From Halorubrum sp. Atlit-26R (GTDB lineage Archaea; Halobacteriota; Halobacteria; Halobacteriales; Haloferacaceae): a stretch of 64,000 nt of DNA. Location of the stretch: contig NZ_QPLT01000004.1 in assembly GCF_003666015.1 (NCBI RefSeq), positions 124,001 through 188,000 of the forward strand, given 5' to 3'. Under the pieces are notes generated by a model. The model saw only the letters and a program-made list of their open reading frames with translations. It was not told the DNA's origin and searched no databases. The position numbers and the translations under genes were made by a program. Numbering within the stretch: position 1 is the stretch's first letter; the number at the start of each line of letters is the position of its first letter. Below are positions 1 to 20,998 of the stretch, piece by piece.

Positions 1-2
1 GA

Positions 3-764: not shown

Positions 765-806
765 CCCGCCCGGAGCGCTTATTCGCCTCCGAGCGTCAGG
801 ACGGGT

Positions 807-2162: not shown

Positions 2163-2256
2163 GCGGAGGACAGTATCCGGAAGGGCCGCCCGACCGCGGC
2201 GCCCCTAACATGGTATGACCCCAGCGTAAACGGCCCCCGACGCGTAGCCAGAGGTA

Positions 2257-3864: not shown

Positions 3865-3918
3865 GCGGTCGAATCCGTTCGTTCGTCGGCGGCGGCCTCC
3901 GCCTCACACGTCACCACC

Positions 3919-4455: not shown

Positions 4456-4601
4456 GTGTGGGGTTGGACGCGCTGCGACAAGCACGTGTCGTTCGGGCGG
4501 AGGGCGCCGGGGTCGCGTCCGCGTTCCGGTCGCGTCCGCCTCACGTGATGGGGAGCTGAAACGAACGTTATGTACGTCCGGGCCCGACGGTGAGGTCACG
4601 G

Positions 4602-6155
4602 ATGCGCGACTCCACCGTCACCGCCGTCGTCGCCGTCGGGCTGCTCGTGGTACTCGCCGGCTGCGGCGGGCTCGGCGGCGACACCGCCGGAGGACTCTCG
4701 GGCGCGCCGTCGCCGTCGATCGAGTCCGTCGACGCGCCCGAGTCGCTCGGCCACGACGAGCGGGCGACGGTCGAGGCGAGCGTGCGGTGGGAGGGGCTCG
4801 CGAGCGACGGCGGCGGTGGTGAGAGCGGGGGTTCGGCGAGTTCGAACGCGACGCTCGACCCGGTTCGGGTCGCGGTTCGGGCCGGCGACGCGACGCTGCT
4901 CTCGGAGAACCGGTCGGTCCCGGCGAACGGGACGATGACGGTGACGGCGACGGTCGACGCCGCGGCGCTCGACCCGGGAGAACGCGAACTCGCGGTGTCG
5001 GTCGGCGAGGCGACGGCGAGCCGCACTGTCGTCGTCAAGGAGGCGCGGGCGGCGACGTTCGCGGTCTCCGAGGTCGAGGCCCCCGAGAGCGTCGGGTACG
5101 GCGATGACCTCGCGGTCACGGCGACGGTGACCAACGTCGGCGACCTGGCGGGCAACCAGACCGTCCGGATCCGGTACGGGTCCGGCACGAGCGCGAACGT
5201 GACGGACGCCCGGACCGTGGCGCTCGACGGCGGCGCGGAGGCGGAGGCGTCCGTCACGTTCGCGGACGTGCGGCTCGACGGCGGCGACTATCCGGTCGTC
5301 GTGACGACCGCGAATCGGACGCGCGAGCGGGCCGTCTCGGTGGTCCACCCGAGCCCGTACGGGAAGACGACGCTCGGGCTCTACGTCGACGACGCGGCGG
5401 TCGACCGGAACGTTTCGGACGTCGTCGTGGCCGCGACGGGCTACTGGGAGCGGAGCGACGAGCGCTACCTCGGCTACCCGGTCGAGTACGATCGGGTCGA
5501 CGACGAGGAGCGAGCCGACGTCGTCCTCCGGTTCGACCGCGTGGAGCGGTGCGGCGTGGAGGAGACCAACGAGACGCGGTACTTCGGCTGCGCGGACCTC
5601 CTCGTCGACGAGCCGCGGACGCCGATGACCGCGACCGTCGACCCCCGGATCTCCGACGCGGAGATGAACGCGACGATCATCCACGAGCTCGGCCACGTTC
5701 AGGGGCTCGAACACGGCGCGGAGCCCGCCGGACTGATGAACGCGACGAGCACGCTCGCGACCCACCGGGCGCTGAAGGTCCACCTGCGCGCCGACGAGGG
5801 CGCGGTCACGGGCCCCGTCGAGGACGAGGTCGCTGCCGCGCTCGACTACTTCGCCGGCCGTGACGATATCGCCGGGAACGACCGGTTCGCGTGGGAGTTC
5901 GTCGACGGCGCGCGCGAGGCGCACGTCCAGATCACCTACGACGAGCGCGGCGACGTCTGCTTCGCCGACGGCGGCGGGTCCTGTACGGTCGAGGGCGAGT
6001 ACTACGGACAAGAGGACGTGCGCTTGGAGGCGTTAGACGAGGAGGTCGTCGCGTGGCACGTCGGCGCGTCGCTGGCGCCGGTGTTGCTGGAGGAGGTGCC
6101 GCCGGAGCTTACAGGCGATGCGGAGCGGCGGGAGCGGGAGGCGTGGCCGGGATAG
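4602..6155 (+). CDS. Secreted lipoprotein with metzincin-type protease domain
   Basis: The ATG at 4602 puts a lipoprotein signal at the N-terminus (MRDSTVTAVVAVGLLVVLAGC, lipobox LAGC), so the protein is exported and anchored by a lipid on Cys. Two beta-rich, CARDB-like segments follow (roughly residues 30-140 and 145-250, the second with VEAPESVGYGDDLAVTATVTN). The C-terminal part has the zinc site HELGHVQGLEH near residue 361 and a downstream LMN that would be the Met-turn: the HExxHxxGxxH metzincin pattern. It is a candidate cell-surface protease. Substrates are unknown. An upstream GTG at 4590 would add four residues and is less likely given the signal. Confidence 0.8.
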   Translation: MRDSTVTAVVAVGLLVVLAGCGGLGGDTAGGLSGAPSPSIESVDAPESLGHDERATVEASVRWEGLASDGGGGESGGSASSNATLDPVRVAVRAGDATLLSENRSVPANGTMTVTATVDAAALDPGERELAVSVGEATASRTVVVKEARAATFAVSEVEAPESVGYGDDLAVTATVTNVGDLAGNQTVRIRYGSGTSANVTDARTVALDGGAEAEASVTFADVRLDGGDYPVVVTTANRTRERAVSVVHPSPYGKTTLGLYVDDAAVDRNVSDVVVAATGYWERSDERYLGYPVEYDRVDDEERADVVLRFDRVERCGVEETNETRYFGCADLLVDEPRTPMTATVDPRISDAEMNATIIHELGHVQGLEHGAEPAGLMNATSTLATHRALKVHLRADEGAVTGPVEDEVAAALDYFAGRDDIAGNDRFAWEFVDGAREAHVQITYDERGDVCFADGGGSCTVEGEYYGQEDVRLEALDEEVVAWHVGASLAPVLLEEVPPELTGDAERREREAWPG

Positions 6156-6170
6156 AGTTCGGGCGGCGAG

Positions 6171-6491
6171 CTACTCCCGATACCGCGCTTCGAGTTCGTC
6201 GGTGAAGTAGACGTATCGGCGCTCGACGCGTTCGAAGTCCGTCCCGGGGATGAGGATCGATTCCTCCGGTGAGCCGCTGTCGCGCACCGTCTCCTCGACC
6301 CGCTCGGTGGTGACGAGTCCCCTCGATTCGAGGCTCTCGATGGCCGTTTCGGCGCTGCCGTCGCTGCCGAGAACTCGGAGTTCTTCCGCGGGGAGGCCCT
6401 CCTCGATCATGAACTCGAACGTGTCCCGCTCGATGACCTCGCCCACCTCCAAGACGTCCTCGACGAGCCGTTCCTCGGGGTCGGTCAGCAC
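6171..6491 (-). CDS. Small acidic protein, possible winged-helix
   Basis: A 106-residue protein with a GTG start, about 25 bp downstream of a TATA-like CTTTAG on the minus strand, which fits a leaderless transcript. The sequence alternates predicted helices (DPEERLVEDVLEVGEVI, SAETAIESLESRGLV) and ends in a strand-rich YVYFTDELEARYRE, which could be a small winged-helix fold. I do not recognise a family. It is convergent with the metzincin gene (16 bp gap). Function is unknown. Confidence 0.55.
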   Translation of the reverse strand: MLTDPEERLVEDVLEVGEVIERDTFEFMIEEGLPAEELRVLGSDGSAETAIESLESRGLVTTERVEETVRDSGSPEESILIPGTDFERVERRYVYFTDELEARYRE

Positions 6492-6691
6492 GGTCGGCTG
6501 GTCGTCTGTCGCGATTTCACTTTAGCGTTCGTGCGGGAAGGCGAACGGAGTGCTCCCGTCTCGCCGGGAGAGACTCTCGATCCCGAGCCCAGTTTTGTGT
6601 CCCGAGGATCGAACCGTCCGCGGCTCGGGCGTTCGAAAACGGTGTTCGAAGCGACAGAACGCTTATTCCACGGTGACGACTACTACCATCC

Positions 6692-6895
6692 ATGAGTACT
6701 GGCCGGGAGATCCGCCTGATCGAGGAGGACGAGGGGGGATGGTCTGCGATCGATCAAGAGCTGAACGTCGCCAGCCAAGGTGAGACGCGTGAGGAGGCGC
6801 TTTCGAACCTCGACGAGGCGGTCGAACTGACGAAGGAAGCCCGCGAGGCGGACACGAACGCGCCAGAGCCGGACGCTCCCTGGTTCGAGGAATGA
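6692..6895 (+). CDS. hicB: HicB-family antitoxin
   Basis: A 67-residue HicB-like (UPF0150) protein: IRLIEEDEGGWSAIDQELNV with the strand pattern and the GETREEALSNLDEAVELT helix that define the family, with no DNA-binding tail. HicB antitoxins bind and block the mRNA-cleaving HicA toxin. Its last codons overlap the ATG of a hicA-like frame by 4 bp (ATGA), the usual coupling of such pairs. Because the downstream hicA is frameshifted, this antitoxin may now be an orphan. Confidence 0.8.
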   Translation: MSTGREIRLIEEDEGGWSAIDQELNVASQGETREEALSNLDEAVELTKEAREADTNAPEPDAPWFEE

Positions 6896-7142
6896 GCGGT
6901 CCACCGCGAAACTTCTCCGGCCGAGAGATCGTCACCGTCTCACCTCTTTCAATTACCGCAAAGACCGACAGCGCGGAAGCCACGCGATTCTGAAGTACAC
7001 GAACCCCGACACCGGCGAGGTCCGAACCGTCACCGTCCCGCTACACGACCGGGTGAAGATCGGGACGCTCCAGTCGATCGCGGATCAGTGCGGCGCAGAG
7101 GACTTCGACGCGTGGTGTCGCTGGATCGACGAGCATCGCTGA
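6892..7142 (+). pseudogene. hicA: hicA toxin gene, frameshifted
   Basis: The ATG at 6892 overlaps the hicB stop. In frame the product begins MSGPPRNFSGREIVTV, as HicA proteins do, then runs into a TGA about 17 residues later. If the frame moves back one base near 6939-6940 it continues LTSFNYRKDRQRGSHAIL and on through VTVPLHDRVKIGTL to WCRWIDEHR and a stop at 7142. That second part holds the catalytic His (GSH) and the rest of the dsRBD-like HicA fold. The gene is therefore broken by an indel, unless ribosomes shift frame here or the assembly has an error. It is too short in either frame to be picked up as one ORF. Confidence 0.75.
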
Positions 7143-7251
7143 CGCGGTCACACGCGAGTTCCTTCTACGCCGCTCACTGTCGGTATCGGCGACCTTGTCG
7201 ACCGCTGCGTCGCAAGAGAACGAGGAAATGAGGCGACCGGAGGGAATCGAA

Positions 7252-7264
7252 TGGACTCGCGGGG
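7252..7264 (-). repeat. Copy of the tRNA-Ala 3' end in the spacer
   Basis: TGGACTCGCGGGG occurs here and again at 7335-7347, where it forms the 3' end of tRNA-Ala (both read on the plus strand). The spacer copy is followed by an 8-bp hairpin (CTCGCGGG-GGT-CCCGCGAG, 7256-7274). The 7143-7334 spacer otherwise contains only short repeats of the GCGAACGNAGTGAGCG kind. A duplicated tRNA 3' end is what an old integration at the tRNA would leave, but only 83 bp separate the copies. Confidence 0.4.
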
Positions 7265-7334
7265 GTCCCGCGAGCGAACGGAGCGAGTGGGACCACGCGA
7301 GGGAACGACTAAGCGAACGAAGTGAGCGCAGGAG

Positions 7335-7406
7335 TGGACTCGCGGGGATTTGAACCCCGGGCCTTCCCCGTGCCAGGGGGATGATCTACCACTGATCTAC
7401 GAGCCC
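7335..7406 (-). tRNA. tRNA-Ala (GGC)
   Basis: On the minus strand a full cloverleaf can be drawn: 7-bp acceptor (GGGCTCG with CGAGTCC) containing the G3-U70 pair that marks alanine tRNAs, a 4-bp D stem, a 5-bp anticodon stem TCCCC/GGGGA with loop CTGGCAC giving anticodon GGC, a 5-base variable region, and a T arm CGGGG-TTCAAAT-CCCCG. The discriminator is A. CCA is not encoded and there is no intron. It lies just downstream of the SRPBCC gene's 3' end, on the same strand as that gene. Confidence 0.95.
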
Positions 7407-7486
7407 GCGAACGCATTCGTTCGTTCCGCGGTGAATATCTTAAGGGCTTCGAATCGCGGACCGACGAGGCCGCGCTCCGCCCGCGC

Positions 7487-8041
7487 TCAGATCCGGTCGG
7501 AATCGACGTACACGTCGAGGTCGACGTCCCGCGTCGACCCCTCTAAGTCCTGGACCGCGCGCTCGACGACGCGCTCGGCCTCGTCTCTGATCAGCGGGAT
7601 CGCCTTCTTCAACACCCAGTCGAACGAGACCAGCCGCGGGAGGTCGAGCGCGTCGGAGCTGGCCGATCCGGGGTCGAACTGGACTTCGAGTGCGACCTCG
7701 CAGGGGGCGTCGTCGGTCGCGTCCGCGTCGTCGTCGTCGTCGCCCTCGACGCTCTCGGGCGGCGTCACTCGCCAGCAGCCGCCGGCGTCGATGTCCTTCG
7801 TGATCTCCCAGTCGATGCGCTCGGGCGGCTCGACGCCGGTCACCTCCGAGCGAGCGGTGTAGGAGATCTTCCACCACGCGAACGTGAGCGCGTACTTGGT
7901 CCCGGGACCGCCGTCGCCGGTGACGGTCCGGACCTCGCGGAGGTACTCGGAGTAGTTCGCGTACCGCGGGAAATCGAGCAGGAAATCGTACACCTCCTCG
8001 GGGTCGGCGTACACCTCCGTTCGCACGACGAGTTCGTCCAC
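7487..8041 (-). CDS. SRPBCC (START/RatA-like) family protein
   Basis: A 184-residue protein starting MDELVVRTEVYADPEEVYDFLLDFPRYANYSEYL, the opening strand and helix of the SRPBCC/polyketide-cyclase-like fold, which forms a hydrophobic ligand cavity. An acidic insertion (about residues 103-117) lies in the middle, and the C-terminal long helix (ALDLPRLVSFDWVLKKAIPLIRDEAERVVERAV) closes the fold. It is soluble. Ligand and process are unknown; relatives include lipid-binding and ribosome-associated RatA-like proteins. Confidence 0.75.
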   Translation of the reverse strand: MDELVVRTEVYADPEEVYDFLLDFPRYANYSEYLREVRTVTGDGGPGTKYALTFAWWKISYTARSEVTGVEPPERIDWEITKDIDAGGCWRVTPPESVEGDDDDDADATDDAPCEVALEVQFDPGSASSDALDLPRLVSFDWVLKKAIPLIRDEAERVVERAVQDLEGSTRDVDLDVYVDSDRI

Positions 8042-8135
8042 GTACTGGGGTTCGGGCGGCGCTTATTAAACGGACCGGCGATGGTACTCGTTCAATATCT
8101 CTGTGGTGGTCGCTCTCCCGGCCTCGGCCGCTCGG

Positions 8136-8249
8136 TTATAAATGAGAGACTGTGGATCGGCGGCGTAAACCTCCAAAGCCCCAGCCGCTCGGTTATAAAT
8201 GAGAGACTGTGGATCGGCGGCGTAAACCTCCAAAGCCCCAGCCGTGAGG
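8136..8249 (+). repeat. Two tandem 57-bp units of the repeat element
   Basis: Two perfect 57-bp direct repeats begin at TTATAAATGA (8136 and 8193). A partial earlier unit may be left at about 8121-8135 (GCCTCGGCCGCTCGG). The second unit runs into the left arm of the 19-bp stem, so unit and stem are fused. Each unit contains an archaeal TATA-like box and a GGATC...ACCTCC segment. Confidence 0.9.
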
Positions 8250-8470
8250 CCGCAGTACGCTCGTTGCGCTCCTCGTCACTCGCTTCGCTCGTTCCTGCGG
8301 TGCTTACGTCGCCTACTGCGGCCTCACGGCTGCCCCTTTGAGTCCCACCCCGCACCGCACAGCACCGCACCTCACACCTCCCCAGCCTCGTCGCTGGCGC
8401 CGGCGGCGCCAGCGACTCCCTCGCGCGTGCTGCTCGCGCCCGCCGGGCGCTCGCAGGCACGCGCCACCGC
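8136..8470 (+). repeat. Modular non-coding repeat element, copy 1
   Basis: This fills most of the 540-bp gap 8042-8581. In order: two identical 57-bp units (8136-8192, 8193-8249), each opening with TTATAAATGA and carrying ACCTCCAAAGCCCCAG; a 19-bp perfect inverted repeat (8239-8257 with 8314-8332) enclosing 56 bases; box A CTGCCCCTTTGAGTCCCACC (8330-8349); a box ending CCTCCCCAGCCTC; a 12-bp perfect hairpin (8390-8401 with 8405-8416, loop GGC); a box GACTCCCTCGCGCGTGCTG; and a third hairpin (8436-8450). A second copy with the same order and orientation is at 44508-44864. No protein is credible: the apparent minus-strand ORF only repeats a 19-residue block because 57 is divisible by 3. I know no named family with this layout. 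Confidence 0.85.
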
Positions 8471-8481
8471 ACTCGGTCGGT

Positions 8482-8490
8482 TCTTTATAA
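8482..8490 (+). promoter_or_regulatory. TATA box for the ABC exporter gene
   Basis: TCTTTATAA, a good archaeal TATA box, lies just past the repeat element and about 92 bp before the ATG at 8582. This would give a 5' leader of roughly 65 bases, unusually long for a haloarchaeal mRNA. Confidence 0.5.
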
Positions 8491-8581
8491 GTGATCGGCG
8501 GGTCGAGAGCCGCAATCGTCGGAACCCGGAACGGGCCGCCGAGGCCGCCGGATACATGGGGCCTCCGGCGCTCGTACGCCT

Positions 8582-10690
8582 ATGGCTGCCGACGAGCGCA
8601 ACGCCTTCGAAGTGTACCGCGACCGGGTCGACCGACCCCTGGGTCGGCTGTTCCGCGAGTACGGGGCCTCGGAGGCCCACTGGCTCGTGATCGGAATGGT
8701 CGCCAACGTCGTCGCCCGGGTCGCGGGGCTGATCCCGCCGGTCGTCCTCGGCGTCGCCATCGACGCCGTCTTCACCGGCACCGGCCCCTACACGCTTCCC
8801 ATCGTTCCCGACGCGTGGCTCCCCACGGAGGCGGACGCGCAGTTCCGCCTCTCGGTGATCCTCATCTTCGGGTCGTTCATCGTGACGGGCGTGTTCACGT
8901 ACGTCTACGGCATCGCCGCGAACAACTTCGCCCACCGCGTGATGCACGCGGTCCGCACCGACTCCTTCGACCGGATGCAGCGGCTCGACATGACCTTCTT
9001 CGACGACAAGCAGACCGGCGAGGTCATGTCCGTCCTCAACAACGACGCCTCGAACTTAGAGGTCTTCCTCGATAACGCCCTCCAGAACTCCGCGCGCCTC
9101 GGCGTGATGCTCGTGGGGATCGCGGGCGTCCTCGTCTACTACAACTACGAGCTCGCGATCGTCACCCTGGCCGCGGTCCCGCTCATGTTCCTGTTCACGC
9201 TCTGGTTCATGCGCGCGGTCGAGCCGCGGTACGTCGCGCAGCGCTCGGTCGTCGGCGACCTGAACACCTCGCTCGAAAACGCGCTGTCGGGCGTCGAACT
9301 GGTGAAGACCTCCAACACGGAGGCCCACGAGAGCGAGCGCGTCGAGGACGCCTCGTTCTCGTATTTCAAGCGCACGATGTCGATCCTCCGGCTCAACTAC
9401 GTCTACCGGCCCGGGATGGAGCTGCTGGCCGGGCTCGCCTTCGCCGCGACATTCGCGGTCGGCGGCTTCTGGCTCGCGAACGGCCCGCCGGGCCCGTTCA
9501 CGACGGAGCTGACGGTCGGCACGTTCGTCACCTTCGTCCTCCTCACCCAGCAGTTCGTCGCCCCGCTCGCCGAGGTGTCGAACATCATCGACCAGTACGA
9601 GAACGCGAAGGCCTCCTGCGAGCGCGTGTTCGGCCTGCGGGACATCCCCGTCCGCATCGAGGACGACGACGACGCGGTCGAACTCGGCGGCGGGACGCGG
9701 AGCGACGGCGGAAGCCAACAAGCCGGCGGAACCGACGAGGGTAGCGGCGGCGTGACGCCGGCCGGCGACCCCGACCGCGGCGGCGTCGCCGGCGCCGTCG
9801 AGTACGACGACGTCTCCTTCGCGTACCCCGAGAACGCCCTCGTCGACCCCGAGGACGCCGAGGAGGAGGTCCTCAGCGGCGTCTCCTTCACGGCCGAGCC
9901 GGGCGACACCGTCGCCCTCGTCGGCCCGACCGGCGCCGGGAAGTCGACGCTGCTCAAGCTGCTCCTCCGGCTGTACGACGTCACCGACGGCGCCATCCGC
10001 GTCGACGGCCACGACGTCCGCGACGTGACCGTCGAGAGCCTCCGCTCGTCGGTCGGCTACGTCGCGCAGGACACGACGCTGTTCGATGGCACCATCGCGG
10101 AGAACATCCGCTACGGACGGTTCACGCGGATCGACGAGGCGGGCGCAGAGGGCCTCGACGAAGACGAGGTCCGAGAGCGCGTGGTCGAGGCAGCGAAGGC
10201 CGCGGAGGCCCACGAGTTCATCGACTCGCTACCGAACGGGTACGAGACGCGGATCGGCGAACGCGGCGTGAAGCTCTCCGGCGGCCAGCGCCAGCGGCTC
10301 GCCATCGCCCGCGTCGTCCTCCAGGACCCCGCGATACTCATCCTCGACGAGGCGACCTCGGCGGTCGACACGGAGACGGAGATGCTGATCCAGCGCTCGC
10401 TCGACCGGCTCGCGGCCGACCGCACCACCTTCGTCATCGCGCACCGCCTCTCGACGGTGACCGACGCCGACACGGCGCTCGTGTTAGAGGACGGCGAGGT
10501 CGTCGAGCGCGGCACCCACGACGACCTGCTCGCCGCGGACGGGCTCTACGCGAAGCTCTGGGGCGTTCAGGCGGGCGAGATAGACGAGTTGCCGGAGGAG
10601 TTCGTCGAGCGCGCCCGCGAGCGCCACGTCGACCGCGCGGTCGAGCGGGCGACGGCGGAGAGCGAGGTCGACTCGGAGACGCTCGACTGA
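8582..10690 (+). CDS. ABC exporter, fused permease and ATPase
   Basis: A 702-residue type I ABC exporter half-transporter. Residues ~30-340 form the six-helix membrane domain, with the typical coupling segment FFDDKQTGEVMSVLNND. An acidic Gly-rich linker (~365-400) leads to the ATPase: Walker A GPTGAGKST at about 448, Q-loop GYVAQDTTLFDG, signature LSGGQRQR at about 565, Walker B ILILDEATSAVD and H-loop FVIAHRLST. All catalytic residues are present, so it should pump as a homodimer. Substrate is unknown (lipid, peptide or drug). The ATG at 8582 gives a normal-length N-terminus. Confidence 0.93.
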   Translation: MAADERNAFEVYRDRVDRPLGRLFREYGASEAHWLVIGMVANVVARVAGLIPPVVLGVAIDAVFTGTGPYTLPIVPDAWLPTEADAQFRLSVILIFGSFIVTGVFTYVYGIAANNFAHRVMHAVRTDSFDRMQRLDMTFFDDKQTGEVMSVLNNDASNLEVFLDNALQNSARLGVMLVGIAGVLVYYNYELAIVTLAAVPLMFLFTLWFMRAVEPRYVAQRSVVGDLNTSLENALSGVELVKTSNTEAHESERVEDASFSYFKRTMSILRLNYVYRPGMELLAGLAFAATFAVGGFWLANGPPGPFTTELTVGTFVTFVLLTQQFVAPLAEVSNIIDQYENAKASCERVFGLRDIPVRIEDDDDAVELGGGTRSDGGSQQAGGTDEGSGGVTPAGDPDRGGVAGAVEYDDVSFAYPENALVDPEDAEEEVLSGVSFTAEPGDTVALVGPTGAGKSTLLKLLLRLYDVTDGAIRVDGHDVRDVTVESLRSSVGYVAQDTTLFDGTIAENIRYGRFTRIDEAGAEGLDEDEVRERVVEAAKAAEAHEFIDSLPNGYETRIGERGVKLSGGQRQRLAIARVVLQDPAILILDEATSAVDTETEMLIQRSLDRLAADRTTFVIAHRLSTVTDADTALVLEDGEVVERGTHDDLLAADGLYAKLWGVQAGEIDELPEEFVERARERHVDRAVERATAESEVDSETLD

Positions 10691-10714: not shown

Positions 10715-13700
10715 TCAGTCGTCGCTCGACACCTGACCGGTCGCGTCGGCGTCGGCGTCCGGCACCGCGGCGGCGGGCGCGGGCGGCTCCTCGCGCACGT
10801 CGGCGCCCGTGCCCTCCGCGATGACCTCGGCGTACGCGTCGGGGAAGACGCGGACGAAGTCGTCGAGCGCGGCCTCCCAGTCGTCGAGCAGGTCGGCCGC
10901 GCGCTCGCTGTCGGTGTAGGCGCGGTGGTTCTCGACGAGCCGGCGGAGCATCCGCTCGTCGGACTCCTCGAGCGTCTCGGAGACCGACACCATCCCGCGG
11001 TTCACGCGGTCGCCGAGCCGGTCGTCGGGGTCGTACACGTACGCGACGCCGCCGGACATCCCGGCCGCGAAGTTGCGGCCCGTGTCGCCCAAGACGGCGA
11101 CGACGCCGCCCGTCATGTACTCGCAGCCGTGGTCGCCGACGCCCTCGACGACCGCCCGGACGCCCGAGTTGCGGACGCCGAACCGCTCGCCCGCGACGCC
11201 GTTGACGTACATCTCGCCCGACGTGGCGCCGTACAGACAGACGTTACCCGCGACGACGTTCTCCGTCGGGTCGTACGCGGCCTCGGCGGGCGTATCGATC
11301 ACGATTCGGCCGCCGGAGAGCCCCTTCCCGACGTAGTCGTTGGCGGCGCCCGACAGCTCCATGGTGATCCCGGGCGCGAGGAACGCGCCGAAGCTCTGTC
11401 CGGCCTCGCCGTCGAACCGACAGGAGATGGTGTCGTCCGGGAGCCCCTCGCCGCCGTGCTCGGAGACGACGCGGTTCGAGAGCGTCGCGCCGACCGCGCG
11501 GTCGACGTTGCGCACGTCGCGGGTGAGCGCGACCGGCGCGCCGTCCTCGATGGCCGGCGCGGCCTCGTCGATGAGGTCCCAGTCGAGCAGGTCGTCGATG
11601 CCGCCGTGGGGCTGCTCGCGGACCTTCGTGCGGGACTCGCCCGCGGGCTCGGCGATCACCGCGGAGAGGTCGAGATGTTTCGCCTTCTCGTGGTCCGTCT
11701 CGCGCTGGGTGAGCAGTTCGGGGCGGCCGATGAACTCCTCCAGTTCCGTGTACCCCTGCTCGGCCATGATCTCGCGCAGCTCCTGCGCGATGAACGTCAT
11801 GTAGTTGATGACGTGGTCCGGCTGACCGGGGAACCGCTGGCGGAGGTCCTCGCGCTGGGTGGCGACGCCGACCGGGCAGGTGTTCTCGTGGCACTGCCGG
11901 GCCATCACGCAGCCCGCGGTGACGAGCGACGCGGTGCCGAAGACGTACTCCTCGGCGCCCAGCGCGGCCGCGACGGCGACGTCGCGGCCGGTCCGCAGCC
12001 CGCCGTCGGCCGACACGCGGATGCGGTCGCGAAGGCCGGTGGCGCGGAGCATCTGGTTCGCCTCCGCGAGCCCGAGCTCCCACGGCAGGCCGGCGTTCTT
12101 GATCGACGTCTTCGGCGAGGCGCCGGTCCCGCCGTCGTGGCCCGAGACGTGGACCACGTCGGCGTTCGCCTTCGCGACGCCGGCCGCGATGGTGCCGATG
12201 CCGGCCTCGGAGACCAGCTTCACGTTGACATCGGCCTCGGGGCTGGCGGCCTTCAGGTCGAAGATGAGCTGCTTGAGGTCCTCGATGGAGTAGATGTCGT
12301 GTTGCGGCGGCGGCGAGATGAGCCCGACGCCGGGGGTCGAACACCGGACGTGCGCGATCATCTCGTTGACCTTCTTGCCGGGGAGGTGGCCGCCCTCGCC
12401 GGGCTTCGACCCCTGCGCCATCTTGATCTGGAGCTCCTCGGCGCTCGCGAGGTACTCCGAGGTGACGCCGAACCGGCCCGAGGCGACCTGCTTGACCGTA
12501 CACTCCTTCTCCGTGTCGAACCGCTCGGGCGGCTCGCCGCCCTCGCCGGTGTTCGACTTCCCGCCGATCCGGTTCATCGCGACCGCGTTGTTCTCGTGGG
12601 CCTCCGGCGAGATGCTCCCGAGGCTCATCGCGGCCGTCGAGAAGCGCTCGACGATCGATTCGACGGACTCGACCTCGTCGACCGGCACCGGGTCGCGGTC
12701 GGAGTCGAACTCGAGCAGGCCGCGCAGCGACTGGAGCTCCTCGGTCTGGTCGTTCACCAGCTCGGCGAACTCCTGATACTGCTCGTAGTCGCCGCCGCGG
12801 ACCGCCTGCTGGAGCGTGCCGACGGTCTGGGGGTTCCAGCCGTGTTTCACGCCCGAGGAGCGGTGCTCGTACTCGCCGATCGTCTCCAGCTCGGGGTCGG
12901 CGCCGAAGGCCATCGCGTGGCGCGTGCGGAGGTCGTCTTCGATCTGTTCGATCCCGATCCCCTCGGTGCGGATCTCGGTCCCCTCGAAGTACTCGGCGAC
13001 GAAGTCGGAGTCGAGGCCGACCGCCTCGAAGATCTGGGCGCCCTGGTACGACTCCATCGTCGAGATGCCCATCTTCGCCATCGTCTTGAGGAGGCCGTCC
13101 TCCAGCGCGTGGCGGTACGCCGCGAGCGCCTCGTCCTCGTCGGCGCCGTCCGGACCGGCGACCACGTCGGCGATGGAGGCGTACGCGAGGTACGGGTCGA
13201 CCGCGTCCGCGCCGTAGCCGACGAGCGTCGCGAGGTGGTGGACCTCGTGGGGTTCGCCGGACTCGACGACGACGCCCGCGCGGTTGCGGAGCCCTTTCCG
13301 GACGAGGTGGTGGTGGACCGCGCCGGTCGCGAGCAGGCTCGGTACCGCGAGGCGGTCCGGCCCCACAGCGCGGTCAGAGAGGACGACCACGTCCGCGCCG
13401 TCCTCGATGGCGGCCGCGGCGTCCTCGCGGACTCTGCTCACGGCGTCGACGAGCGAGCCGTCGCGGTCGTAGGTGACGTCGACGGTGACCGAGGTGAACG
13501 AGGGCCCGCCGGACGCGTCGTCGTCGCCGTCGCGGTCCCCCGGACTTCGCTCGCCCGGCCCGGGGAGGTCTCGCAGAGCCGTCGTCTCGGCGTCGGTCAG
13601 GATCGGGGTGTCGGCGACGATCTGCTCGGCGTGTTCGGGCGTCTCGTCGAGGAGGTTCCGCTGGTTGCCGATTCGCGTCTCCAGCGAGGTGACGAGCTCC

Positions 13701-15445
13701 TCCCGGATGTAGTCGATCGGCGGGTTCGACACCTGCGCGAACAGCTGCTTGAAGTAGGTGAAGAGGGGGCGGTCGACGTCGGCGAGGACCGAGAGCGGCG
13801 TGTCGTCGCCCATCGAGCCGACCGGGTCCTTCCCGTCCTTCGCCATCGGCTCGACGAGGTGGTTCAGCGAGTCGGTGGTGTAGCCGAACGCGGCCTGGTG
13901 GGCGCGGACGGTGGGTTCAGTTTCGTCTTCGTCGTCCGCCTCGCTCGACTCACCCGTATCGTCTCCTTCCCCCACAGGCTCGGCGTCGATGCCGGCCGCG
14001 ACGCCGTCCTCGTCGGTGAGCGCGTCGAGGTCGACCTGGCCGTCCTCGACCCACTCGCCGTACTTCTCGTCGGTGAGTTCCTCGAACACCTCGTCGTCGG
14101 GGACGATCCGGCCCGCCTCGGGGTCGGCGACGAAGATCTCGCCGGGCTGGAGTCGACCGCGGCGCCGCACGTCGGCGGGCTCAGTCGGGAGCGCACCGAC
14201 CTCGCTGCCGACGACGAGTCGGTCGTCGGTCGTCACCTCGTAGCGGCACGGGCGCAGCCCGTTGCGGTCCAAGACGCCGGCGACGCGCTCGCCGTCGAAG
14301 CCGATGACCAGCGCGGGGCCGTCCCACGGCTCGACGAGCGAGGCGTGGTAGTCGTAGAAGTCGGCGCGGTCGTCGGCCATCAGGTCGTCGCCGCGGAACG
14401 CCTCCGGGATCAGCATCCGGAGCGCGTGGGGGAGGTCGCGGTCGGTCTGGAGCAGGAGTTCGAGCGCGTTGTCGACGCTCGCGGTGTCCGACTGGTTCGG
14501 GTCGTCGATCACCGGCTTGATCGTGTCGAGCTCGGCCCCGAACGCCGGGTGTTCGAGGTCGTTCTCGCGGGCGCGCATCCAGTTGACGTTGCCGCGGATC
14601 GTGTTGAACTCGCCGTTGTGGACGATGTTGCGGTACGGGTGCGCGAGGTGCCACGCGCCGAGCGTGTTCGTCGAGAACCGGGCGTGGACCAAGGCGACGT
14701 GGCTCGCGAACCGCTCGTCCGTCAGGTCCGGGTAGTAGCCGTCGAGCTGCGAGCCCTTCAGCAGGCCCTTGTAGACGACGCGCTGGCGGTCGAGCGAGCA
14801 GACGTAGAAGCGGCCGGCGCCGTCGACGTCCGACACCGCGTTCTCGATCTCGCGGCGGGCGGCGTACAGCGCGCGGTCGAACCCGAGCAGGTCGGGGTCG
14901 ACGTCGTCGGACCGATTCTCCTCGCTGGTGAACCGCTGGGCGAGTCCCGCGCCCTCGACGGGCGCGACGAACACCTGCGACACCTCCGGCTCGGAGTCGA
15001 GCGCCGTGGCGCCGAGGTCGCTGTTATCGGTCGGGACGGAGCGCCACGCCAGCACCTCCAGCCCGTAGACGGCGCACACCTCGGCGATGACGTCGTGGAT
15101 CTCCGCCTGGACACCCGGTTCGGGCGGCATGAACACGGAGCCGACCGCGTACTCCTCGGGGAGGTCGGCGTCGACGACCTCGCGGAAGAACTCGTCCGGA
15201 CGCGCGACCATGATCCCCGCGCCGTCGCCGGTGTTCTCCTCCGCGCCCGTCGTCCCGCGGTGTTCGAGGTTCTCGAGCAGTTCGACCGCGTCCGCGACGG
15301 CCTCGTGCGACGGCGCGCCGTCGAGGTCGACGACCCCGCCGATGCCGCAGTTCGACCGGTCGTCCGTCGGCGCCGCGAGCCCCCCCTCCTGACCCGAGGA
15401 CTCCGAGTCGCGTACGCCCCGGGTGGTACTACGTGACTTGGTCAT
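10715..15445 (-). CDS. gltB: Glutamate synthase large subunit
   Basis: A 1576-residue glutamate synthase converting 2-oxoglutarate and glutamine to two glutamates. I start it at the ATG at 15445, not the longer open frame. The Ntn-type glutaminase begins at Cys33 (SNCGIGG), so a ~32-residue propeptide must be removed. The central FMN-binding synthase domain carries the 3Fe-4S cysteines in CVMARQCHENTCPVG, and GEGGEPPERFDTEKE marks the FMN half. The C-terminal beta-helix (GGXIV.. repeats) is complete. There is an acidic insertion near residue 490-520 and another near 650. No small subunit (gltD) is nearby, as is usual in haloarchaea. The electron donor (ferredoxin or NAD(P)H) cannot be read from the sequence. 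Confidence 0.95.
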   Translation of the reverse strand: MTKSRSTTRGVRDSESSGQEGGLAAPTDDRSNCGIGGVVDLDGAPSHEAVADAVELLENLEHRGTTGAEENTGDGAGIMVARPDEFFREVVDADLPEEYAVGSVFMPPEPGVQAEIHDVIAEVCAVYGLEVLAWRSVPTDNSDLGATALDSEPEVSQVFVAPVEGAGLAQRFTSEENRSDDVDPDLLGFDRALYAARREIENAVSDVDGAGRFYVCSLDRQRVVYKGLLKGSQLDGYYPDLTDERFASHVALVHARFSTNTLGAWHLAHPYRNIVHNGEFNTIRGNVNWMRARENDLEHPAFGAELDTIKPVIDDPNQSDTASVDNALELLLQTDRDLPHALRMLIPEAFRGDDLMADDRADFYDYHASLVEPWDGPALVIGFDGERVAGVLDRNGLRPCRYEVTTDDRLVVGSEVGALPTEPADVRRRGRLQPGEIFVADPEAGRIVPDDEVFEELTDEKYGEWVEDGQVDLDALTDEDGVAAGIDAEPVGEGDDTGESSEADDEDETEPTVRAHQAAFGYTTDSLNHLVEPMAKDGKDPVGSMGDDTPLSVLADVDRPLFTYFKQLFAQVSNPPIDYIREELVTSLETRIGNQRNLLDETPEHAEQIVADTPILTDAETTALRDLPGPGERSPGDRDGDDDASGGPSFTSVTVDVTYDRDGSLVDAVSRVREDAAAAIEDGADVVVLSDRAVGPDRLAVPSLLATGAVHHHLVRKGLRNRAGVVVESGEPHEVHHLATLVGYGADAVDPYLAYASIADVVAGPDGADEDEALAAYRHALEDGLLKTMAKMGISTMESYQGAQIFEAVGLDSDFVAEYFEGTEIRTEGIGIEQIEDDLRTRHAMAFGADPELETIGEYEHRSSGVKHGWNPQTVGTLQQAVRGGDYEQYQEFAELVNDQTEELQSLRGLLEFDSDRDPVPVDEVESVESIVERFSTAAMSLGSISPEAHENNAVAMNRIGGKSNTGEGGEPPERFDTEKECTVKQVASGRFGVTSEYLASAEELQIKMAQGSKPGEGGHLPGKKVNEMIAHVRCSTPGVGLISPPPQHDIYSIEDLKQLIFDLKAASPEADVNVKLVSEAGIGTIAAGVAKANADVVHVSGHDGGTGASPKTSIKNAGLPWELGLAEANQMLRATGLRDRIRVSADGGLRTGRDVAVAAALGAEEYVFGTASLVTAGCVMARQCHENTCPVGVATQREDLRQRFPGQPDHVINYMTFIAQELREIMAEQGYTELEEFIGRPELLTQRETDHEKAKHLDLSAVIAEPAGESRTKVREQPHGGIDDLLDWDLIDEAAPAIEDGAPVALTRDVRNVDRAVGATLSNRVVSEHGGEGLPDDTISCRFDGEAGQSFGAFLAPGITMELSGAANDYVGKGLSGGRIVIDTPAEAAYDPTENVVAGNVCLYGATSGEMYVNGVAGERFGVRNSGVRAVVEGVGDHGCEYMTGGVVAVLGDTGRNFAAGMSGGVAYVYDPDDRLGDRVNRGMVSVSETLEESDERMLRRLVENHRAYTDSERAADLLDDWEAALDDFVRVFPDAYAEVIAEGTGADVREEPPAPAAAVPDADADATGQVSSDD

Positions 15446-15446
15446 A

Positions 15447-15462
15447 CACTCGCGTACGAGTG
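15447..15462. promoter_or_regulatory. Inverted repeat between TATA box and gltB start
   Basis: CACTCG-CGTA-CGAGTG, two perfect 6-bp arms around four bases, sits 2-17 bp upstream of the gltB ATG and downstream of its TATA box. A repressor bound here would block initiation, so it is a candidate operator. The regulator is unknown. Confidence 0.45.
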
Positions 15463-15467
15463 AACAG

Positions 15468-15473
15468 TTAAAG
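15468..15473 (-). promoter_or_regulatory. TATA box of gltB
   Basis: CTTTAA on the minus strand, centred 26 bp from the gltB ATG, which predicts an almost leaderless mRNA. A second, more distant TATA-like stretch (CTTATATT) lies around 15514-15524. The rest of 15474-15676 is AT-richer spacer with no gene that I can see. Confidence 0.5.
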
Positions 15474-15676
15474 GTATGACCCTGATAGGGGTAGGATCCA
15501 TCGTACACACATTAGGGAATATAAGGTAATTATTCATCACGGGTGGTGACCAGATCACACACCACGGTATCGATCAGAAATTCTTCACTACGAGCCACAT
15601 ATTGACGGATTCTACAGGAATTCTCCGCGGTCGTCTCACGGATTCCGATCAGAGTGGCGGAACGTCCAGTCGCGGA

Positions 15677-15844: not shown

Positions 15845-15967
15845 GTCCGGGCGAACGTCACCAGCGAGCAAAAGGATACCGGCGATCGGCGGCGCCGACC
15901 GCCCGCAGTGACCCGGTCCGACGGGGCCCCGCCGACCGCGACTCCGCGATCACGAGCGCCGTCGCGA

Positions 15968-18900
15968 TCACGATCCGCGTCCGCGACGCCGAGCGAGAAG
16001 CGACGCGCCCGCCAGCGCCGCGAGCGACGCGGCGGCGTCGAAACCGGGGAGGTCGTACACGGTCGATCGGATCGGCGCCTCGTCGTACCCGAGGTCGCTC
16101 GGCGCGGACGAGTCGGACGGCTCGATCGAGTCGGCGGATTCCGTCGACGTCGCGCCGTCGCCTTCACCGCCACCCGCGTCGTTCGACCGACCGTTCTCGG
16201 AGCGAGACCCGGCCGCCGGGGAGTCGCCCGCGCCGCGCTCACGTCCGCCGGGTCCGAAGAGCTCCGGCGGCACCGCGGACGGCGGAATCTCCGACGTCCC
16301 GGGAGCGATCGAGATGCCCACCCCGGGGCGCGGCGCCGGGCGGTTCGCGTCCGGTCCGGGCGACTCCTCGGACGAACCCGGACTGCCCGCGTTCGTGGCG
16401 TTACCGGCTCCGGCCGAGACTGCGGGGCCGGCGCCCCCTCCGGATGCGCTCCGGCCACCGGTCGAACTGCCGGCGGTCGAGCCGCCACTGGTCGAACTGC
16501 CACCGGTCGAGCCGCCACCGGTCGAGCCGCCACCGGCCGAGCCGCCACCAACCGAACTCCCGCCGACCGAACCGCCGCTGGCCGAACCGGAACCGCCCGC
16601 CGTGCCGGTCGAGCCCGACGCCTGCAAGTCGGCGGACGCGCTCGCTCCGGTCGAGTCGGCGGCGGCGTAGGTCAGCACAGTCGTCGCGCGGTGCCGGTCG
16701 TCCGCCGCAGTCCGACGGAGTCGGTCGTCGTCGACTCGGAACCCGGCCTCGAACGTCGCGCCGGGATCGGGGAGCGTCTCGGTGCCGAATGCGCGTTCGC
16801 CGTCGGCGACGACGTACAGGCCCTCCCGGTCGAGGTGGACCGCGGACTCGTTCGGCGTCCGACCGAGCGCGTCGCCCCCGATGGACTCGTTGTTCGCCGT
16901 CCCCGTCGGCGACACGCCGAACGAGAGGCCGTCGAGGCGGTCGAGGTCCGCACCTCGCTTCAGCGACGCGTTCGCGGCCGCCGGGAGGCCCGTCAGACCG
17001 GTCGCGTTCACGGCGTACACGACGGTGTCGTTCGCGGTCGCGGCCGTCGCCGGCGTGAGCGTTCCGTCGGCGATCGCCTCTCGAACCGCGGTCGCGTTCC
17101 CGAACTCGCCGGGAGCGACCGCTCGCGTGGTGTACGCGGCCAGGTCGCTCGTCGAGCGGGGTTCCACGGTGACCGTCGCGGTGTCGTTGGCGACTTCGGT
17201 GCCATGCTCCGACCGCAGCGTCAGGTCGTACGTCCCGGGCGAGAGCGGAGCGGTATCGCCCGTGACCGATTCGACGTCGATGCCGGACCCGGTCGTGACG
17301 AACTTCGACGGCGATTCCGGCGACGCGTACGTGTTGAGCGTGACTGGTGTCGGACTCGTCTCGGTGGTTGTCAGTTCGAGTGTTGTAGTGGTATTATCTG
17401 ATGACATCAAAGTTATCGAAGAGGTATCATATGTTGAATTTAGAACTAGATCGAGATGGCTGCCACTGTGTAATTTCTCATGAATAGTAGCACGGACAGT
17501 AGGGTTTCTGTCTTTCAAAACCTCTACATCCTGAGTAGTGGTGATATTCGTATCCAGATCATGTACTTCTACTGAATATATTCCGGGTTGAGAAACAGGA
17601 ATATATCTACTGACATTGGAAGCGTTATTCAACATAATCTCTGTCCGAGATATCATACCAGAATTTGCCTTCGAGACATTAAGAACAGCAGTCCGATTGG
17701 TTCCATTCGCTCCAATATGAATCGGTATCTGAGATCCGTTTACTGTGTCAGCTGTTTCAAAATGAATGGATGAGTCAATCAAATGGAAGGTGATATTCTC
17801 TGTTCCAGAATTAGAACTCACTGAGTAGTGGCCGGGACTAAGACCTTCTGTTCTTACCGTATGAACAGTGTTTAACCCAGTAGAATCTATTCGTCTAACT
17901 GAACTTCCGTTGATTTTTGATAGATTATAGGTATACTGTTGTTCTAATTGGATGCCAATATTTGAACCTTGATTGATTGTATATTCTTTCCCACTATAGA
18001 CTAAATTATCTACACGAACAGGAGAACTAAATTGGTTTTTGAACGGATTACTACTTGATGTGGAGACAATACCACCAACTTCGATATTGTTGATCACTGG
18101 TTGAATATCTTGAGTAGAAATGTTGGCTGCGGTCGGGGGATAAACATACAGAAACTCACCATTTATGTCAAACGCCTCTGGGTTGTTTTTAATAGAGATA
18201 TTTCCTGTCCTATTGTTGGATAATTTAGTAGTTATATATCCCTGAGAACGGGATATATTCGTGTTGAATTCGAACAGGAGAGTACCATTAGACCCCTTAT
18301 CCACGTCAGTTCTGCTGTAATAAAATGGACCACCTATGAGTTGAGCAGGCACAGAGACATTGATAGTTGTTGAATCTAAAGCGTAGATCGCATTGAAACC
18401 GTGCTTGTCCGGTGAAGAGTGAAGACCAATTATTATCTTTGTTTCACCTTCGATATTAGTGTCTCTGAGCGATATATTTTTACTAGATGTCTCTACAGTT
18501 TTGATTTTCTCTCCTAGGCCCCCATCTTGCTTCTCCTTCCAAATTGTTACAGCAGTGTTTAGACTTTGATTGTTGTTTGCGGAGTAATCGTAGAAAACAG
18601 ATTGTGTAGATTGGTTATACGTGTCAGATTTGAATTCGATAGATCCAAGAGAAGATATGGTAAAACTAACAGATGCTTTCTTTCCTCCCTGTTCAGCGGT
18701 ATATGAAAGATCGCGATTTATTTTTGCTCCTTCTTCATCGTATTTACTAACATTTGTTGTATCTATATTGTTGATGTATAGATCAAACCGGCCAGGACTG
18801 GAAATTGCTGAAGCAGACACGACAACGGTCGCATTTGAGCTGTTCGGGTTTTCTATATACACCTCTGAGCTATTCGTTTTCTCATCAATGTCTATTCGAT

Positions 18901-19168
18901 AGGATGTCGCGTTGTGATCTAACTCTGCGCCAGAGTCAACAAGAGCTCCAACATGAATCTCGACAGGCTCGTTAGAGTCAAGAACTTCGATATTGGTGAC
19001 TACTTGCTGCTGTTCGGATCCAATTTCAAGATCGCTCGCACTATCTACATCCCATAGTTGTGCGGAGGCTGCGAATGTCCCAGAGATAATTAGTAAGACA
19101 ACGGCGCCCACCACAGCACTCATTACGACGACGACCCACAGCCATCGAAGCGATCGCGTCCGGATCAT
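15968..19168 (-). CDS. PGF-CTERM surface glycoprotein, AT-rich N-terminal half
   Basis: A 1066-residue exported protein. The N-terminus has a basic patch and a long hydrophobic segment ending TFAASA, a signal peptide or anchor. The C-terminus ends DLPGFDAAASLAALAGASLLARRRGRGS: the PGF motif, a membrane helix and Arg cluster that archaeosortase A recognises before swapping the tail for a lipid. Residues ~1-600 are Asn/Ser/Thr-rich with more than twenty N-x-S/T sequons and are coded by AT-rich DNA (e.g. 16 G/C of 60 at 18181-18240). From about 17370 on, the coding DNA returns to normal high GC. A Gly/Ser-rich repeat (about residues 850-920, DNA 16440-16620) serves as a stalk. The sharp change in composition suggests the outer half was replaced by transfer. 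The binding or structural role is unknown. Confidence 0.85.
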   Translation of the reverse strand: MIRTRSLRWLWVVVVMSAVVGAVVLLIISGTFAASAQLWDVDSASDLEIGSEQQQVVTNIEVLDSNEPVEIHVGALVDSGAELDHNATSYRIDIDEKTNSSEVYIENPNSSNATVVVSASAISSPGRFDLYINNIDTTNVSKYDEEGAKINRDLSYTAEQGGKKASVSFTISSLGSIEFKSDTYNQSTQSVFYDYSANNNQSLNTAVTIWKEKQDGGLGEKIKTVETSSKNISLRDTNIEGETKIIIGLHSSPDKHGFNAIYALDSTTINVSVPAQLIGGPFYYSRTDVDKGSNGTLLFEFNTNISRSQGYITTKLSNNRTGNISIKNNPEAFDINGEFLYVYPPTAANISTQDIQPVINNIEVGGIVSTSSSNPFKNQFSSPVRVDNLVYSGKEYTINQGSNIGIQLEQQYTYNLSKINGSSVRRIDSTGLNTVHTVRTEGLSPGHYSVSSNSGTENITFHLIDSSIHFETADTVNGSQIPIHIGANGTNRTAVLNVSKANSGMISRTEIMLNNASNVSRYIPVSQPGIYSVEVHDLDTNITTTQDVEVLKDRNPTVRATIHEKLHSGSHLDLVLNSTYDTSSITLMSSDNTTTTLELTTTETSPTPVTLNTYASPESPSKFVTTGSGIDVESVTGDTAPLSPGTYDLTLRSEHGTEVANDTATVTVEPRSTSDLAAYTTRAVAPGEFGNATAVREAIADGTLTPATAATANDTVVYAVNATGLTGLPAAANASLKRGADLDRLDGLSFGVSPTGTANNESIGGDALGRTPNESAVHLDREGLYVVADGERAFGTETLPDPGATFEAGFRVDDDRLRRTAADDRHRATTVLTYAAADSTGASASADLQASGSTGTAGGSGSASGGSVGGSSVGGGSAGGGSTGGGSTGGSSTSGGSTAGSSTGGRSASGGGAGPAVSAGAGNATNAGSPGSSEESPGPDANRPAPRPGVGISIAPGTSEIPPSAVPPELFGPGGRERGAGDSPAAGSRSENGRSNDAGGGEGDGATSTESADSIEPSDSSAPSDLGYDEAPIRSTVYDLPGFDAAASLAALAGASLLARRRGRGS

Positions 19169-19436: not shown

Positions 19437-20117
19437 TCAGTGTTCGACCGCTTCCATCATCGAGAGCAACTGCTCGCGCTGGGACGCCTGTTCCGGGTGG
19501 ACGCCGACCATCGCGATCGCGTCTTCGCTGTCCGCGCCGTCCGCGGTGTGTTGGACGGTAGCGATGTACAGGAGAACGGGGACGTCTTCGACGGATCCGG
19601 TCGAGTTACCCGTCCCCTCGACGTCGGCGCTGATCGTCGTCTCGAAGACCGGGATGGTGGTCTCTTCGCCGAGGATCGTCCGAGTCTCCTCGCCGCGCTC
19701 CTCGATGTCGTCCGTTTGGATGTCGGCGTTGCCGCCGCCGACGTCCTGCTGATTGATCTGGTTGAGGAGCCGTCGGATGAGATCCGCGCCCTCCACCCTG
19801 ACGAGCGGATTGACCGACTGGCCGGCGACGGAGGCGTTCGGCGTACTCGCCACGAACAGCGCCGACTGGGTCGTCGAGTTGGTGTACCGGGCGACCCACG
19901 TCGTCGCCGTGACCTTCGCGTTCACGCCAGTGACGTTGAACTCGCGGTCGATGGTGTACGATTCCGGATCCTCCCCGGAGTAGCCCTCCGCGTACGCGGA
20001 CTCGGGAACGCGCGCCGGTTCCGCGTCGAACTCGTAGCTCCCGTCCTCGCCGGCGCACCCGGCGATAGCGACCGAGGTCGACGCCGCGAGTGCCGCGAGC
20101 AGTCCACGTCGTTTCAT
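19437..20117 (-). CDS. Haloarchaeal lipoprotein (probably DUF6517)
   Basis: Start at the ATG at 20117 gives MKRRGLLAALAASTSVAIAGC, a signal peptide with twin Arg and a lipobox ending in Cys, so a Tat-exported lipoprotein is likely. The mature part is ~200 residues, mostly beta, with the segments VTATTWVARYTN, FVASTPNASVAGQSVNPL and a C-terminal ...EDAIAMVGVHPEQASQ. This pattern fits the haloarchaeal family I remember as DUF6517. No function is known. It is divergent from the next gene. Confidence 0.7.
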   Translation of the reverse strand: MKRRGLLAALAASTSVAIAGCAGEDGSYEFDAEPARVPESAYAEGYSGEDPESYTIDREFNVTGVNAKVTATTWVARYTNSTTQSALFVASTPNASVAGQSVNPLVRVEGADLIRRLLNQINQQDVGGGNADIQTDDIEERGEETRTILGEETTIPVFETTISADVEGTGNSTGSVEDVPVLLYIATVQHTADGADSEDAIAMVGVHPEQASQREQLLSMMEAVEH

Positions 20118-20230
20118 GTGTTCCGGTAGGTCTACACGGTTCTTTAAGCCTATCGACGCGTCTATCGGTCGCGAGAACCCCGCAGCCGAAGGCACAAAGT
20201 TCACGTCGGGCCGCGCGCGACGTGAGGCAA

Positions 20231-20998
20231 ATGGAACGACGAGGACAAACCGGGCTGGTGGAAGCGCTCTTCTTAGACGTGGTTCGCCTCCACGAGACGT
20301 GGATGGAGGTGGTCTTCCCGCGGCAGCTCGACCCGAGCGCCGTCTTAGGGAAGTGGAAGCCCGAGACGGCCGTCCAGTCGGTCGGCTACTACCTCTGGGC
20401 GGTGCTGGGCGCGCCGCTCGTCGCGGTCGCGTACCCCCTCCTGCTCGTCGGGTTCGCCACGCGCTTCTACGCGGCGAAGCTCGACTCCGCGGTCACGCGC
20501 TTCGGCGTGCTCGGCGCGGTGATCGTCGCGACCGTCGTGTGGGGTTCATTGACGCTCCTCGCCCATTTCCAACTGCCGACGGACATCATGCTCGTCATCG
20601 GGCTAGCCAGCATCGTTGCAGTCGTCTCTGCCGGGCTTGCGGCCGGCTTCTCGAAGGTCGGCGGTCGGTTCGTCAGCGTCTTCCTCGCCTATCCGTTCGC
20701 GATGACGGCGATATTCCTGCCGCCGGTCGTCGCGGCAGTGATCACACCGGCAATCGGTGAAATAATCCTCCCACCGAGCTCCCAACTCGCGCAGTGGATC
20801 CTCGACACGTTCCTTACGGTCGGCGGGATCAACGAGACGCTTCAGGGCGCGTTCGATCTGGACACGTTCGGACAACAGTGGGGTGCTCCCGGTCTCGGCT
20901 ACGTGCTGATGTGGATCGGCATCTCCGTTCCGCTCGGCTGGTTCCTCGGGCTGCTCGTCGCGCTGGCGAACCTGATCCGGCCGAAATCGGACAACTGA
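20231..20998 (+). CDS. Polytopic membrane protein, family unknown
   Basis: A 255-residue protein from the ATG at 20231. After a soluble ~50-residue start (VEALFLDVVRLHETWMEVVFPRQL) there are about five hydrophobic segments, including LAAGFSKVGGRFVSVFLAYPF and a final GLGYVLMWIGISVPLGWFLGL. I see no transporter signature, metal motif or kinase domain. The upstream in-frame extension to 20090 lies over the neighbouring lipoprotein's start region and is not credible. Confidence 0.65.
   Translation: MERRGQTGLVEALFLDVVRLHETWMEVVFPRQLDPSAVLGKWKPETAVQSVGYYLWAVLGAPLVAVAYPLLLVGFATRFYAAKLDSAVTRFGVLGAVIVATVVWGSLTLLAHFQLPTDIMLVIGLASIVAVVSAGLAAGFSKVGGRFVSVFLAYPFAMTAIFLPPVVAAVITPAIGEIILPPSSQLAQWILDTFLTVGGINETLQGAFDLDTFGQQWGAPGLGYVLMWIGISVPLGWFLGLLVALANLIRPKSDN

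Follow-up and report, generated by a model that had tools for sequence, protein, structure and literature searches.

The window, a 64,000-nucleotide stretch of the Halorubrum sp. Atlit-26R genome, carries a gene for a surface glycoprotein assembled from parts of contrasting base composition and history. The gene is present as a single copy in its own genome, and its product comprises a short leader, a long outer head, and a tail with a stalk and a C-terminal anchor motif (Table 1). As described below, the heads of related genes fall into two classes, A and B; the window gene has a class A head. Downstream lies a conserved gene that we take, from its sequence, to encode a gltB-like glutamate synthase large subunit. 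Upstream lies a predicted lipoprotein gene, a flank that is also seen at class A loci (L043 and L044) and class B loci (L045, L047, and L048).

Table 1. Features of the surface glycoprotein locus in the window
Feature	Coordinates	Strand	Basis or remarks
PGF-CTERM surface glycoprotein gene	15968..19168	-	ATG start, 1066 aa; ORF and translation
Leader: signal peptide/hydrophobic segment, codons 1 to about 25	19094..19168	-	GC-richer; common to both head classes
AT-rich exchangeable head cassette, class A, codons about 26-592	17393..19093	-	Heterology limits against the class B-headed gene L081
Junction zone	17345..17392	-	Class B homology resumes at codon about 593; GC step at codons 600-608
GC-rich conserved tail core, codons about 597-845	16634..17380	-	Alignment; distant relation to part of the canonical S-layer glycoprotein
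Low-complexity Gly/Ser-rich stalk of variable length	16049..16633	-	Sequence and alignment
PGF-CTERM anchor motif, residues 1041-1062	15983..16048	-	Pfam PF18204 and NCBIfam TIGR04126 scores
gltB-like glutamate synthase large subunit, conserved 3' flank	10715..15508	-	Independent marker for tree
Predicted lipoprotein gene, conserved 5' flank of A- and B-headed genes	19437..20204	-	

Base composition changes abruptly inside the reading frame. GC content is 0.69-0.78 across positions 15850-17349 and 0.36-0.41 across about 17350-18999; at 4-fold sites it is 0.32 in codons 29-602 and 0.82-0.91 thereafter, and the transition, near codon 600, is sharp. A two-change-point fit to GC3 divides the gene after codons 22 and 600 into segments of 0.73, 0.34, and 0.85 and improves the log-likelihood by 151. 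Codon 600 ends at position 17369, in agreement with a first-pass annotation that placed a composition switch at about 17370 within one gene. That annotation also assigned residues 600-1066 to GC-rich DNA with a Gly/Ser stalk and a PGF-CTERM tail, an assignment that stands, and all of residues 1-600 to AT-rich DNA. The latter holds for codons from about 25 to 600 and fails for residues 1 to about 25, the signal peptide, which are GC-richer; the AT-rich piece is thus an insert, not the entire N-terminal half. Its reported density of N-glycosylation sequons (more than 20) is borne out: residues 31-602 contain 26, whereas shuffling this segment gives 12.2 +- 2.8, and the tail contains 8. The GC3 step is the largest intragenic one among 272 naive ORFs in 464 kb of the same genome, a rough baseline only, as naive ORFs include antisense and over-extended frames. 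The lowest 600-bp GC in the 464 kb, 0.37, also sits in this gene (1% quantile, 0.454). On the same contig, segment C4:60001-80000 holds an 8.6-kb AT-rich island at its positions 1-8623, where 600-bp GC falls to 0.44.

The C-terminus displays the features of an archaeosortase-anchored protein: a C-terminal motif aligned in the orthologues, a hydrophobic stretch, and a basic end. The motif scores 18.8 bits with Pfam PF18204, exactly at the 18.8 cutoff, and 17.2 bits with NCBIfam TIGR04126, under its cutoff of 24.5. We therefore predict a surface protein of the PGF-CTERM type. The protein is related to the canonical S-layer glycoproteins at a distance. Neither the family model NF041335 nor the signal-peptide model TIGR04207 matches it at E<=10. 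Two paralogues in the genus, L109 and L054, match both models and PGF-CTERM, with NF041335 scores below the cutoff, and the tail profile shows weak similarity to both (E 1.1e-5 and 3.6e-8, respectively). Class A columns 238-514 and the tail are colinear in L122. Because the models miss the window protein and match paralogues that distantly resemble its tail, the protein is best placed, by profile comparison, as a relative and not a member of the canonical family. Structure prediction, based on an alignment of five sequences that left out the loci from the genome search, returned an all-beta head at low confidence (mean pLDDT 51) and a poor tail (mean pLDDT 42). The model of residues 477-551 resembles a fibronectin/Ig-type sandwich with a Z of about 8, which is background for such searches. 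Pfam searches of the heads gave only stray matches (GBD_IRG7_N in two class A heads and DUF7282 in one class B head), on which we do not rely.

Orthologues in perfect synteny occur in Halorubrum distributum, H. californiense, H. coriense, and H. tebenquichense, as found by a scan of public genomes. Their heads are, respectively, 91, 63, 51, and 47% identical to that of the window gene, and the composition step falls at the same codon in all four. Across the five genes, the heads have a 4-fold GC of 0.31-0.39 and the tails one of 0.79-0.91, while synonymous (4-fold) divergence reaches 0.68. The head is more diverged than the flanking genes, except in the pair formed by the window and H. distributum. 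Next to the locus, the membrane-protein gene at window positions 20228-20998 is 98.8% identical to its H. californiense counterpart (4-fold difference 0.024) and 83.5% identical to that of H. distributum; its neighbours display the opposite or an average pattern, suggesting a recent interspecies recombination tract that adjoins the locus.

We extended the comparison to the genus, with one genome per species and draft assemblies among them. The tail was detected in 42 of 50 Halorubrum-genus genomes. The step is present in all 37 homologues with long heads (more than 350 head residues), whichever class the head belongs to: GC4 is 0.22-0.47 in the heads (mean 0.31) and 0.74-0.93 in the tails (mean 0.86), and the change points range from -31 to +10 codons relative to a single residue. 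Several draft contigs (among L145-L153; genomes G002, G003, G009, and G013) end inside or just past the head, which suggests mixed alleles or repeats. Two loci, L046 (G003) and L047 (G006), have broken class B heads, one by an apparent insertion-sequence transposase of normal GC and the other by a frameshift; these may be real head losses or draft errors.

At 40 loci in the genus, the same leader and PGF-CTERM tail enclose a head of either class A or class B, and the two are mutually exclusive. Blastp alignments of at least 250 aa separate the heads into two disjoint classes of 18 each, and four further short or broken loci were classed by their partial heads (one truncated locus to A, three truncated or broken loci to B). 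Without the 250-aa requirement, single-linkage clustering merged A and B through their common leader. Links between the classes consist mainly of the leader and the tail-proximal part (for example, 80% over 35 aa of leader between L050 and L051), and the best profile-profile comparison of A with B heads reached a probability of 10.8% over 72 columns. A side case is L146 (G047), a 1336-aa protein in which a class B-like head (GC 0.36-0.48) precedes a more distant PGF-CTERM tail (GC about 0.7), with the same step.

The two classes are scattered over the relationships of the genes that carry them. Class changes 10 times on the tail tree, 9 of these forced by well-supported branches (shuffled mean, 13.6). 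It also changes 10 times, 7 of them forced, on a tree of the gltB flank, a marker that was recovered at 38 of the 40 classified loci and that may itself recombine. Clustering by class on the trees is modest: 17-47 of 500 shuffles gave counts as low. The tail and the gltB gene nearest to those of the window (91 and 97% identical) accompany a class B head. In the sister pair formed by the window gene (A) and L081 (B), the tails are 91% identical and the upstream DNA 92.8%; in the pair L006 (A) and L087 (B), the figures are 92 and 95.4%. In both pairs, there is no DNA match in between. Whole head cassettes have been exchanged between common flanks. The cross-strain alignment proposed by the first-pass annotation, which expected conserved tails and flanks with alternative N-terminal halves, therefore came out positive, as did its proposal that the exposed half was replaced while the anchor was kept.

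Close A/B pairs delimit the exchanged segment. DNA identity of 84-95% runs from upstream into the leader, is lost, and returns 4-21 codons before the tail. Between the window and L081, 92.8% identity extends over 1.66 kb of upstream DNA and ends at about codon 25. The window swap limits, codons about 25 and 593, lie near the composition steps; the GC boundary of the window gene falls 7-15 codons inside the common part. Across pairs, the 5' limit varies from about codon 14 to codon 31 and the 3' limit from -4 to -21 codons. Because the limits differ between pairs, they are as expected of homologous and not site-specific exchange, and ordinary homologous recombination is the probable route.

The distribution of the classes also bears on their age. 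Of the five clades of the genus, I, II, and III contain both, with class A in clade III resting on L050 and the unplaced draft L117, and IIb and IV have one class only. Each head tree recovers the genus clades, as defined by the tail tree, as strongly supported monophyletic groups. With both classes present in clades I, II, and III, and with heads specific to each clade, the dimorphism appears to match these clades in age, and the two classes most likely predate them.

We therefore favor, with considerable confidence, an ancient head polymorphism that is reshuffled through flank recombination and probably kept by virus or symbiont recognition. The outer half of about 570 codons would act as an exchangeable cassette, with two ancient classes occupying one locus in the manner of idiomorphs. 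Upstream DNA and the leader would serve as the 5' homology arm, and the tail and downstream DNA as the 3' arm; recombination in these conserved GC-rich flanks would swap a whole A for a whole B head across strains and species without disturbing the anchor or the stalk. The product would be a secreted, sequon-rich glycoprotein with a predicted PGF-CTERM anchor, and distant kin of the haloarchaeal S-layer glycoprotein. Phage- or recognition-driven diversification of the head, as the first-pass annotation suggested, may be at work; the polymorphism may be maintained by frequency-dependent selection on surface recognition by viruses or DPANN symbionts. Surface variation in haloarchaea is generally ascribed to viruses (PMC6011602).

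As to why the heads stay AT-rich, the leading idea, though a weak one, is that GC-biased gene conversion drives the high GC content of the genus, and that heads too diverged for internal recombination escape it and drift to an AT-rich mutational equilibrium, with the recombining flanks remaining GC-rich. We hold this only tentatively; it is compatible with the favored reading, as the cause of the composition. The step lies at or near the homology limit at both ends, and both non-homologous classes share the same composition. Since leader, head, and tail are read in a single frame, the difference cannot come from transcript-level expression. Other large surface-type proteins (L147 and L148 of the H. 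californiense genome G034, and L152 of G018) carry a domain related to class B columns about 80-373 whose GC is normal (mostly 0.57-0.68), implicating the locus rather than the domain. A link between recombination and GC has been reported in bacteria (PMC4450053). The main evidence against the idea comes from the same genus: in the pairs considered from a study of H. ezzemoulense, other divergent cassettes average 65.3-70.5% G+C (PMC11078007), so that divergence alone, at least for those pairs, does not make a cassette AT-rich. In addition, the direction of gene conversion in Haloferax is independent of GC (PMC8223754), and the GC boundary follows the homology boundary loosely (Spearman 0.21, p 0.11, with at least 4 of the 57 pairs having a spurious late junction).

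Selection on codons is an alternative cause that we judge unlikely, and less probable than escape from conversion. Here, the head would favor AT-ending or rare codons, for instance because slower translation helps a large beta-sandwich ectodomain to be exported, folded, or glycosylated. The head indeed uses ATA, TTA, AGA, TCA, and GTA often, and the tail does not use them at all; the composition has been kept across near-saturating synonymous change. Yet the tail of the same protein lacks such a shift, as do S-layer glycoproteins from other genera, whose GC is mostly 0.5-0.65, and by appearance the usage is broadly AT-shifted, not site-specific.

The first-pass annotation took the AT-rich composition itself as the trace of replacement by transfer. 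Read as a recent import, an AT-rich domain from outside the genus would have displaced the exposed half of the protein in this lineage without yet having ameliorated. The sharp intragenic step speaks for such an import, and the exchange of heads is real, but the remaining evidence makes it very improbable. The step recurs in 37 of 37 long-headed homologues of both classes, so the proposal as stated is refuted by conservation in relatives, and class A heads have diverged by up to 0.68 at 4-fold sites with their composition unchanged. A likelihood fit gave equilibrium GC3 values of 0.334 for A heads, 0.315 for B heads, and 0.810 for the tail of A genes; with the equilibrium fixed at 0.89, the fit to the heads is worse by 835 and 853 log units. 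This fit, of which the root GC3 estimates are not trustworthy, took the place of a parsimony polarisation of W/S changes that was biased by the distant outgroup. Together with head trees that track the genus clades, an equilibrium GC3 of about 0.33 argues against both recent and recurrent import of AT-rich DNA from outside. None of 91 genomes from other genera of the family contains a full-length class A head; matches there involve the proximal class A columns only, in S-layer glycoproteins of ordinary composition. Viral, phage, plasmid, and PHROG collections yielded no relative of either head. Neither mark of unameliorated DNA, a composition moving to the host value or absence from relatives, was found. 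Because the step is universal among long heads, the equilibrium is low in GC3, and the head trees follow the clades, the AT-rich composition is, on these comparisons, old and maintained.

Programmed antigenic variation from silent cassettes in the same genome would also exchange whole cassettes between conserved arms, but it is scarcely credible here: the window genome has one head copy, of class A, and no class B sequence anywhere, a class A search found no A copy in the B carriers G016, G019, and G020, and none of the A carriers searched with class B had a full-length B head, so nothing points to a silent archive.

The favored polymorphism may be taken a step further, in a form that we regard as possible but doubtful: a trans-species, idiomorph-like dimorphism of the ectodomain that balancing selection has preserved as the genus radiated, and in which the composition step marks the limit of homologous recombination. 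If this were true, one gene would offer a natural test of recombination as a driver of high haloarchaeal GC. High- and low-GC parts within one ORF separate transcript-level expression from local, DNA-level causes of composition, a long-open question. The locus is also a counterexample to the equation of low GC in a GC-rich genome with recent foreign DNA: every long-headed homologue examined retains a synonymous GC step of 0.3 versus 0.9 despite near-saturating divergence. Finally, it is a clean archaeal example of a surface polymorphism with two old classes that recombination reshuffles within defined swap limits, and it suits tests of virus or symbiont recognition.

Unrelated or highly diverged alternatives between common flanks are familiar from fungal mating-type idiomorphs and from bacterial flagellin and O-antigen loci. 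The locus described here differs from these in being a single-gene archaeal ectodomain with no evidence of a mating role.

Closer at hand are the homeocassettes, or homeoalleles, of Halorubrum ezzemoulense (PMC11078007). They are divergent alternatives that exclude one another and share their conserved neighbours; they occur in the same genus, are exchanged by flank recombination, and persist over the long term. The heads likewise are mutually exclusive versions at the same genomic position. The homeocassettes are multi-gene islands within one species with an average G+C of 65-70%; the head cassette is not a multi-gene island with at least half of its gene content homologous, but part of one gene, genus-wide, AT-rich, and with versions lacking detectable homology.

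The nearest protein family for comparison is the ArtA-dependent S-layer glycoprotein (NF041335), which diverges between Haloferax species (PMC5867893) and has 54% identity between strains of Halorubrum lacusprofundi (PMC6011602). Both are PGF-CTERM surface glycoproteins, distantly homologous in the tail and the C-proximal head, and both display strain-level divergence against a conserved background. The window gene is distinct from the canonical S-layer gene, it matches neither NF041335 nor TIGR04207, and it combines a sharp composition step with a clean two-class exchange.
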